This document shows positions 722 through 2,788 of a stretch of DNA of 64,000 nt, piece by piece. Every line of letters begins with the position of its first letter. Positions within the stretch are counted from its first letter, which is position 1. Both the position numbers and the translations under genes were made by a program. The stretch covers positions 1 to 64,000 of the forward strand of contig CACHTV010000004.1 in the NCBI GenBank assembly GCA_902582875.1, read 5' to 3'. Source of the stretch: an uncultured Pelagibacteraceae bacterium. Its GTDB lineage: Bacteria > Pseudomonadota > Alphaproteobacteria > Pelagibacterales > Pelagibacteraceae. Under the pieces are notes generated by a model. It was given only the letters and a program-made list of their open reading frames with translations, searched no databases and was not told the DNA's origin.

Positions 722-1849
722 ATGAATTCTATAGGAATTAGTAAACCTAAAAAAGATACAAAAGTAGTAGTAGCTATGTCTGGAGGCGTAGACTCTTCTG
801 TGGTGGCTGCATTAATGAAAGAAGAAGGGTATAATGTAACTGGCATAACACTTAAGTTGTATGATGATGCTAAGTCTTCAAAAGAAGGAAGACAATGCTG
901 CGCTGGACAAGATATTTTAGACGCCAAAAGAGTTTCAGAAAAACTAGACATAAAACATGAAATTTTATTTTATCAAAAAAAGTTCAAAACTGAAGTTGTA
1001 GATACTTTTATAGATAGTTATGTTGCGGGAGAAACTCCCATACCCTGTGTACAATGTAATCAAACAGTAAAATTTAGAGATTTATTTAAATACGCTAAAA
1101 AATTAAATGCTGATGCTTTAGTGACTGGCCATTATGTTACTAGAATTCAGAAGAATGGACATGCAAATTTATATAGAGCAAAAGATGAAAAACGTGATCA
1201 AAGTTACTTTTTATTTAGCACTTCTCAAGAGCAGCTTGACTATCTAAGGTTTCCATTGGGAGAACTTGATAAATCTGAAACTAGATCTATAGCACAAAAA
1301 TTAAAATTAAATGTTGCAGATAAACCCGATAGCCAAGATATATGTTTTGTACCAAACGGAGATTATAGCTCAGTTATAAAGAAATTTAGACCTGAGTCTT
1401 TTAAAGCTGGAAACATCTTAGATATTTCTGGAAATAGAATAGGCAAACATGAAGGTATAATTAACTATACGATTGGTCAAAGAAGAGGGATTAGGGTAGC
1501 TAATGAGAAACCTTTATATGTCATAAATATTGATGCTAAAGAGAATACTATAACAGTAGGAGAAAAAGAACTCCTGGAAATAAAAGAAGTTAAATTAAGA
1601 GATTTAAATATTTTAGGAGATAAAGAAGATTTTAACAATTTAATTAAAATCAAAGTAAGGTCTACAGGGAGACTTATTAATGCTAAAATAGCTATTTTAG
1701 ATAGTTCTGCAAAAGTCGAGATTCTAGATACTGAAACCGGAATTTCACCAGGGCAAGCATGTGTTTTTTACTTAAAAGATGATTATGGGGATAAAGTGCT
1801 TGGAGGAGGATGGATTCATAAAGCATATAATAAAAATTTATCCACATAG
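722..1849 (+). CDS. mnmA: tRNA-specific 2-thiouridylase MnmA
   Basis: MnmA uses ATP to adenylate U34 of tRNA-Lys, -Glu and -Gln and then inserts sulfur to give s2U. The PP-loop SGGVDS is at residues 20-25. The PCVQCN segment (108-113) holds the catalytic Cys112, and the second catalytic cysteine lies in DSQDICFVP near residue 207. The length of 375 residues is normal. A Cys-Cys pair near residue 59 resembles the alphaproteobacterial form. A short N-terminal leader of about 12 residues precedes the first beta strand, and a later start is not excluded. It is divergent from the DUF3553-cysQ pair. Confidence 0.95.
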
Positions 1850-1866
1850 TTAACATCTAATTTTAA

Positions 1867-1898
1867 ATCACGTAGAAGGTGATACCCCTTTTTTTTTA
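1867..1898 (+). terminator. possible weak intrinsic terminator after mnmA
   Basis: ATCAC (1867-1871) can pair with GTGAT (1879-1883). ACCCC and then a run of ten T (1889-1898) follow. The five-base gap before the T-run and the short stem make this a weak call, but its position just after mnmA and before the RNA candidate fits a terminator. Confidence 0.35.
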
Positions 1899-1918
1899 TT
1901 ATGATTTAATAAGTTTAA

Positions 1919-2088
1919 TTAAGAGGCAACTCTTAACTGGCCATTTAGGGAAAAACCGAGAGGTTCAAGCTTAAAGGGCAGAAAGGTGGACCTAGTAGCG
2001 CTAGAATAGTCCATCGGGAAGGCTTGGCGGTAGCGCCTACAACGACGAGCCAAAACTACTAAATTTCTGGGCGAAAGCCTAGAAATTT
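1919..2088 (+). ncRNA. structured RNA candidate with several GNRA-capped hairpins
   Basis: About 170 bases between mnmA and the next gene are much richer in G and C than the surroundings and fold into clear helices. TTAAGAG/CTCTTAA has a GCAA loop (1919-1936). AACC/GGTT has a GAGA loop (1954-1965). TGGAC-CTAG pairs with CTAG-(AATA)-GTCCA (1987-2013). GGCT/AGCC (2021-2051) may enclose GGCG/CGCC. A 12-bp helix is capped by GAAA (2061-2088). The GNRA loops are purine-type only on the plus strand, which sets the orientation. I do not see RNase P, tmRNA, SRP or 6S RNA signatures. The last two bases touch the stop codon of the opposing gene. Family unknown. Confidence 0.6.
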
Positions 2089-2788
2089 ACGTGGTTCTTT
2101 TCCAGAAAAATCTTGATAATAAATAAAATAAAACAACACCAACAAAATAATTCCATTCCAGAGCATGTTTAAAATGCGTGTTTCCTTTTGCAATTAAAAT
2201 AGGAAGGCTCAAAACTCCTACTAAAGCAAGAATACTTACTAAAATAATCTTTAAAGTTAAAATTTTCTTATTAATTAATTCTTTTAATTTAAGTTTAAGT
2301 TTATAAAGATGGTAAACTAAAATTCCCTGAGCGATTATTTCAAATATGATAAATAATAAAAGCACCACTCTTCTAAAGAGTTTATAAACTTGAATATCAA
2401 ATTTCACTCCAAGCAATATAGAGTGAATCACCAAGAAAATTGCTGATAAAATTCCAAATGTTTTAAATCTATAATTAAAATTTGATGAATTAAGATTATT
2501 TATAAGCTGATTATTATTTTTCCAATAAATATATAAAAATATAGCTGTTACAAACATTGCAGGTTTAAATATTAAATATTGGGGGAATGTCCTAGCAGCT
2601 CTACTTATTGATAAACTGCCATCAATATAAGGAATTGAAAAAGCAGATCTACCAATTTGGTCAACTGTAAAAATAGTATTTTCAAGGAATTCAGGATTTT
2701 GTGAAATTATTAAGCAGAAGTTTATTGCAAACAATGGAATAAAAAAAATCCATAAACTCAACTTTCGAATTTGAGCTATTTCTTTCAT
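2087..2788 (-). CDS. multi-pass membrane protein of unknown function
   Basis: 233 residues with about six hydrophobic segments: near residues 10-28, 75-90, 110-127, 138-160, 180-200 and 214-227. The loops are Lys- and Asn-rich. A late motif, THFKHALEWNYF, faintly recalls the His/Glu-Trp end of Frag1/DRAM/CWH43-type membrane proteins, but this is only a resemblance and I assign no function. It lies 14 bases downstream of a 27-residue basic peptide gene on the same strand, so the two probably form an operon. Its stop codon abuts the structured RNA candidate on the other strand. Confidence 0.7.
   Translation of the reverse strand: MKEIAQIRKLSLWIFFIPLFAINFCLIISQNPEFLENTIFTVDQIGRSAFSIPYIDGSLSISRAARTFPQYLIFKPAMFVTAIFLYIYWKNNNQLINNLNSSNFNYRFKTFGILSAIFLVIHSILLGVKFDIQVYKLFRRVVLLLFIIFEIIAQGILVYHLYKLKLKLKELINKKILTLKIILVSILALVGVLSLPILIAKGNTHFKHALEWNYFVGVVLFYLLSRFFWKRTT

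Follow-up and report, generated by a model that had tools for sequence, protein, structure and literature searches.

The locus was identified, with practical certainty, as IMES-2, an already-known Rfam family without known function, and its host here is a SAR11 bacterium of the family Pelagibacteraceae. An Rfam 15 scan (cmscan) of the window, by which we mean the whole stretch of 64,000 nucleotides analysed, matched RF02035 (IMES-2) at 1912-2053 on the plus strand with 154.7 bits (E = 1.5e-40), where the curated gathering cut-off is 54.7 bits. This match was full-length (model 1-141 of 141) and was the sole non-tRNA Rfam match in the window. The first-pass annotation of this DNA had proposed an undescribed structured RNA at 1919-2088, a novelty that the match to IMES-2 removes. 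It had also set RNase P RNA, tmRNA, SRP RNA, 6S RNA and the riboswitch classes aside, and indeed none of the classical RNAs lies at the locus; the window scan, which followed 6S (RF00013) up to E = 1, gave no 6S, tmRNA or SRP RNA model match there. Its boundaries were nearly right, as the stretch consists of IMES-2 minus its first few bases plus a 3' terminator-like hairpin (2060-2089); the Rfam match begins at 1912, and the last hairpin ends at 2089. Judging from the sequence, the gene probably yields an RNA of approximately 140-170 nt, transcription of which would start near 1917. All features are collected in Table 1.

IMES-2 was reportedly first described by Weinberg and co-workers in 2009, and the original metatranscriptome work of that year is said to have found the IMES RNAs abundant in marine transcriptomes. 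To our knowledge, IMES-2 has been an orphan of unknown function since then. A squid genome paper names it as likely environmental contamination (PMC6962438). It is missing from the RNAs surveyed in P. ubique HTCC1062 (PMC2704228), which is expected because part of the group has no IMES-2.

Table 1. Features at and around the IMES-2 locus (positions in the window)
Feature	Position	Strand	Evidence or remark
mnmA, neighbouring gene outside the RNA	722-1849	+	Pfam PF03054, PF20259, PF20258
Two head-to-tail DnaA-box-like 9-mers (candidate)	1838-1855	+	TTATCCACA 1838-1846 exact; TAGTTAACA 1847-1855 degenerate
Conserved upstream element CACGTAGAAGGTGATAC	1869-1885	+	Family consensus CAAC-N4-AAGTGATAC; core in 62/64 diverged copies, different neighbourhoods
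Probable extended -10, TGA TTTAAT	1902-1910	+	TGnTA-like block before the RNA in most lineages; tentative
IMES-2 RNA body	1912-2053	+	Rfam RF02035
Hairpin 1, loop GCAA	1919-1936	+	100% of cells paired; two-sided changes in 4/7 pairs
Hairpin 2, inner loop GAAA/CAAG, GNRA end loop GAGA	1937-1981	+	Two-sided changes in 12/15 pairs of its two stems
Hairpin 3, loop carries GCGCU(A) 1998-2003	1985-2015	+	Two-sided changes in 8/8 pairs
Kissing helix, GCGCU 1998-2002 with AGCGC 2032-2036	1998-2036	+	Covariation; links loop 3 to loop 4
Hairpin 4, loop carries (U)AGCGC 2031-2036	2021-2051	+	Two-sided changes in 5/9 pairs
3' hairpin, probable intrinsic terminator	2060-2089	+	-17.2 kcal/mol, z -6.0; terminator scan match
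Convergent gene, 233-aa protein, looks membrane-bound	2087-2788	-	No Pfam match

Fold of IMES-2 and the helix between loops 3 and 4

The GC-richer character first noticed in this AT-rich DNA was confirmed: 1919-2088 has a GC content of 47.1% against 30.1% for the window, and is the extreme of the window, since a value that high occurred in 0.05% of 6,383 sliding 170-base windows, which overlap the locus itself. The predicted folding energy of the plus strand was -63.2 kcal/mol, whereas its shuffled versions averaged -42.5 (z = -5.4, none of 200 shuffles as good); the minus-strand fold was ordinary (z = -1.3). Five hairpins were predicted on the plus strand, which agrees with the at least five helices first proposed. 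The three GNRA loops were likewise located on this strand, namely GCAA (1926-1929), GAGA (1958-1961) and GAAA in the 3' hairpin. A GNRA loop was kept at the first position in 62 of 64 diverged copies and at the second in 61 of 64, with letters varying among copies (GCAA and GCGA in the first; GAGA, GCAA, GCGA and GAAA in the second). The GAAA loop sits in the terminator hairpin, where other lineages have a different sequence.

A structural alignment of the 64 diverged copies was used to evaluate these helices. For the Rfam helices together with a loop-loop helix, 94.6% of cells were paired and 32 of 45 pairs exhibited two-sided changes; none of 500 shuffles was as good as the whole helix set, nor was any slid register. 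All four body helices covary, and hairpin 4 contains a conserved G-A/A-G mismatch pair in which G-A is exchanged for A-G among copies. Compensatory changes among homologs were hence found, and the structure is upheld.

The loop-loop helix is a kissing interaction in which the loop of hairpin 3 pairs with that of hairpin 4, and most copies add a sixth pair (2003-2031). It is paired in 97.5% of cells of the 64 copies, and its states comprise GCGCU/AGCGC, GUACU/AGUAC, GCACU/AGUGC, GUGCU/AGCAC, UCGCU/AGCGA and GAACU/AGUUC, plus 4-pair variants. Support for this helix is fairly judged by counting events rather than sequences. When the kissing-helix columns were left out of the tree, the two central varying pairs of the helix showed 4 and 3 changes, giving 7 independent events, always on both sides and with no broken state. 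When every pair of columns was scanned blindly, these two ranked 8th and 14th by corrected mutual information, among ordinary helix pairs. In the shuffle control for the 5-pair kissing helix alone, two measures did not discriminate clearly: 32 of 500 shuffles were as good for pairs changed and 182 of 500 for pair types. The simplest reading is that loops 3 and 4 pair within one molecule, though the pairing may also join two IMES-2 molecules. A homodimer through the palindromic loop UAGCGCUA was rejected, as four copies (L195, L214, L219 and L222) have lost the palindrome yet retain the pairing of loop 3 with loop 4. The GNRA loops and the covarying loop-loop helix make the compact tertiary fold hinted at by the first reading likely. 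The kissing helix is absent from the Rfam structure line of RF02035, and the terminator hairpin and the upstream elements also lie outside that line or the model span.

Control region, gene neighbourhoods and distribution

An element of the form CAAC-N4-AAGTGATAC is common to nearly all lineages, about 32-50 bases before the RNA. It may be an activator site or an unusual -35, the distance of approximately 20 nt from the -10 being unusual spacing for a -35. A sigma-70 consensus scan found no promoter at the locus, and no promoter in common with tmRNA or SRP RNA was seen. The two 9-mers farther upstream, the first of which overlaps the last codons of mnmA, resemble the DnaA box TTATNCACA, and the tandem is kept at -74 to -88 from IMES-2 in all four neighbourhoods described below. 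Tandems with at most 4 mismatches of 16 were found in 180 of 204 copies versus 0.5% of background windows, a comparison that overstates independence because the copies are related; tandems with at most 2 mismatches occurred only twice in 859 kb sampled. DnaA is encoded in 26 of 27 SAR11 genomes. DnaA may bind these candidate repeats, although we consider this step less likely than not. At the other end, the 3' hairpin overlaps the stop codon of the convergent gene, and the U tract after it is weak in the window. In four copies from other clades (L209, L215, L217 and L222) the hairpin is kept with its sequence replaced, and a clear U tract follows.

IMES-2 occurs in four unrelated neighbourhoods, which differ between clades. 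The first, that of the window genus and others, consists of mnmA, IMES-2 and the convergent gene for the 233-aa protein. In the second, a tyrosine recombinase (PF00589) and a glycosyltransferase-rich region lie on one side and an O6-methylguanine methyltransferase (PF01035) on the other. The third contains SNase and SRAP, and the fourth contains SelO and RmuC; SelO and the glycosyltransferases were named by eye. IMES-2-less genomes of the same group retain the recombinase and the methyltransferase, with the IMES-2 cassette missing between them, and some Pelagibacter genomes lack exactly the cassette of RNA and control region, a case of clean presence or absence. As the four neighbourhoods are unrelated, we regard IMES-2 as a free-standing, trans-acting gene and not as an mnmA element or a riboswitch. 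A constant 5' UTR position on the same strand as related genes, typical of riboswitches, was not found among these loci. Two observations concern the neighbours themselves. The gene for the membrane-like 233-aa protein is conserved after mnmA in several SAR11 genera, again without a Pfam match. A tyrosine recombinase bordering a glycosyltransferase-rich region (L212 201-1151 and its relatives L283-L299) is present in nearly all family genomes examined, whether or not IMES-2 lies beside it.

Among named genomes, a pattern scan returned almost only Pelagibacteraceae single cells and MAGs, and the one acidobacterium match did not fit the IMES-2 profile. Within the genus, 133 of 169 genomes carried IMES-2, single copy in all 133, as did 11 of the 14 more complete ones. 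Sampling across the order gave 200 of 397 genomes and 6 of 13 genera, all listed matches falling in one family; diverged copies of 62-94 bits were found in other genera. Several complete Pelagibacter-like genomes gave no IMES-2 even with permissive filters, and the weak matches at E 0.02-5 in IMES-2-less genomes were discarded as chance, as controls give them too. Genus names are given here as we interpret them. This distribution in marine SAR11 Pelagibacteraceae, together with the free-standing gene in four neighbourhoods, agrees with membership in the IMES-2 family. The phage collection contained no IMES-2 copy. Carriage by phages was considered and rejected, as the only viral contig with part of IMES-2 looks like a chimera: in this 2.1 kb viral-class contig (L193 2040-2149), a phage-like DNA methylase gene passes into IMES-2 at a 28-base palindrome, a join that is probably an assembly or amplification chimera. 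A separate GC-rich stretch, the recA-protease spacer of P. ubique HTCC1062 (626974-627168), has 1168 database hits and no assigned RNA (PMC2704228, Table 1), and it could hold another orphan RNA.

Possible role of IMES-2 and alternative explanations

IMES-2 is best explained as a standalone gene that carries a promoter and a terminator of its own, and in which the kissing loops and GNRA loops would fold the RNA into a compact body. Such a body would bind a protein or RNP in trans instead of base-pairing to mRNAs. Through the two DnaA-box-like repeats, DnaA would link transcription of the RNA to chromosome replication or growth. This mechanism as a whole, a compact trans-acting protein-binding RNA that is perhaps DnaA-tuned, is quite possible, if short of probable; we infer both the protein partner and the DnaA control. 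The loop letters covary mutually and there is no other long conserved unpaired run, which argues for a structural or protein-binding role. Hfq was detected in none of 27 SAR11 genomes, with controls positive, and the only long conserved loops pair together; a compact protein-binding RNA is therefore favoured. The window's own genome is 73% complete, and complete relatives agree on Hfq. SAR11 has few known regulators, and an RNA kept in such streamlined genomes likely does something useful. Some points count against this proposal. Many Pelagibacter genomes have no IMES-2, so that the partner would either be restricted to certain clades or function in the absence of the RNA. Degenerate as they are, the 9-mers might be sites of a different regulator, and some other bacteria do have antisense RNAs that act without Hfq. 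It is unlikely, at this stage, that this DnaA-controlled, kissing-loop-held, protein-binding RNA represents a novel kind of riboregulator, linked to replication or growth, which bacteria among the commonest of the ocean have as a removable cassette.

The best-surviving alternative, itself rather unlikely, is an antisense sRNA that controls mRNAs in trans, e.g., those of cell-cycle genes, like EcpR1 and CcnA. IMES-2 is short and free-standing with a promoter and terminator of its own, as such an sRNA would be, and ncRNAs tied to the cell cycle exist in Alphaproteobacteria (PMC4414408, PMC8959179). However, loops that covary mutually are not fixed by a target, and neither a further long conserved unpaired run nor Hfq was found in the copies and genomes mentioned above.

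A regulator of RNA polymerase in place of 6S RNA is very unlikely. The SAR11 genomes among 150 relatives gave no 6S match while other Alphaproteobacteria in that search were positive, and an abundant stable RNA would fit such a role; the fold, however, comprises four short hairpins and a kissing helix in place of a single long hairpin with a promoter-like bubble, and in many SAR11 genomes neither 6S nor IMES-2 is present. Replacement of a missing tmRNA or SRP RNA was rejected, since genuine genes for both lie elsewhere in the genome (tmRNA in 27 of 27 SAR11 genomes, SRP RNA in 25 of 27). It may be recorded separately that neither Hfq (27 SAR11 genomes) nor 6S RNA (SAR11 among the 150 relatives) was detected, whereas other Alphaproteobacteria covered by those searches or controls do possess them.

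It is similarly improbable that the RNA is incidental and the DNA serves as a replication or recombination element, such as a DnaA titration site, part of an origin or an attachment site. The DnaA-box-like repeats, the adjoining tyrosine recombinase in one clade and the cassette-like absence would suit this view, but covariation at the RNA level in all body helices and the kissing helix does not, and genomes without the cassette still have the recombinase. A replication origin was rejected, as the GC skew of one genome (G228; by eye, 20 samples) switches near 150 kb, well away from its IMES-2 at 303 kb; a second genome (G235) exhibited no clear switch. A new ribozyme, to which the compact fold, kissing helix and GNRA loops would be suited, is highly improbable, as we recognised neither a catalytic core nor a processing site shared by the copies, and every copy comes with promoter-like and terminator-like elements of its own. 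The least probable reading by our estimate, a cis-regulatory element (riboswitch or 3' UTR) of mnmA or the downstream gene, draws on the more than 110 loci where IMES-2 follows mnmA, but the downstream gene is convergent here and other clades place the same RNA, with its own control region and terminator, in three other neighbourhoods. Because the neighbourhoods differ and the recombinase and methyltransferase are kept without the cassette, a cis role for a neighbour is very unlikely; the position after mnmA mentioned by the first-pass annotation is one of four, and a functional tie to that gene is equally hard to credit.

Comparison with known systems

IMES-1 (RF02034), likewise an orphan RNA from the sea, bears a name of the same series but forms a separate family; it gave no match in the genomes of 21 relatives, and controls gave none either. 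6S RNA (RF00013) is also a small, free-standing, stable RNA of Proteobacteria, but its fold is different. CcnA of Caulobacter, another alphaproteobacterial ncRNA gene, lies beside DnaA boxes within the replication origin and works in trans on the ctrA and gcrA mRNAs (PMC8959179). Unlike CcnA, IMES-2 changes its neighbourhood, is distant from the likely origin of G228 and has no free antisense loop. IMES-2 is now placed in named SAR11 lineages with a 5' control region, a terminator and a testable tertiary contact, and pairs of presence and absence at the same locus make the function of this orphan motif easier to test. The RNA body described here is no different from the family RF02035, and the kissing helix and the control region are features beyond the Rfam model as printed.
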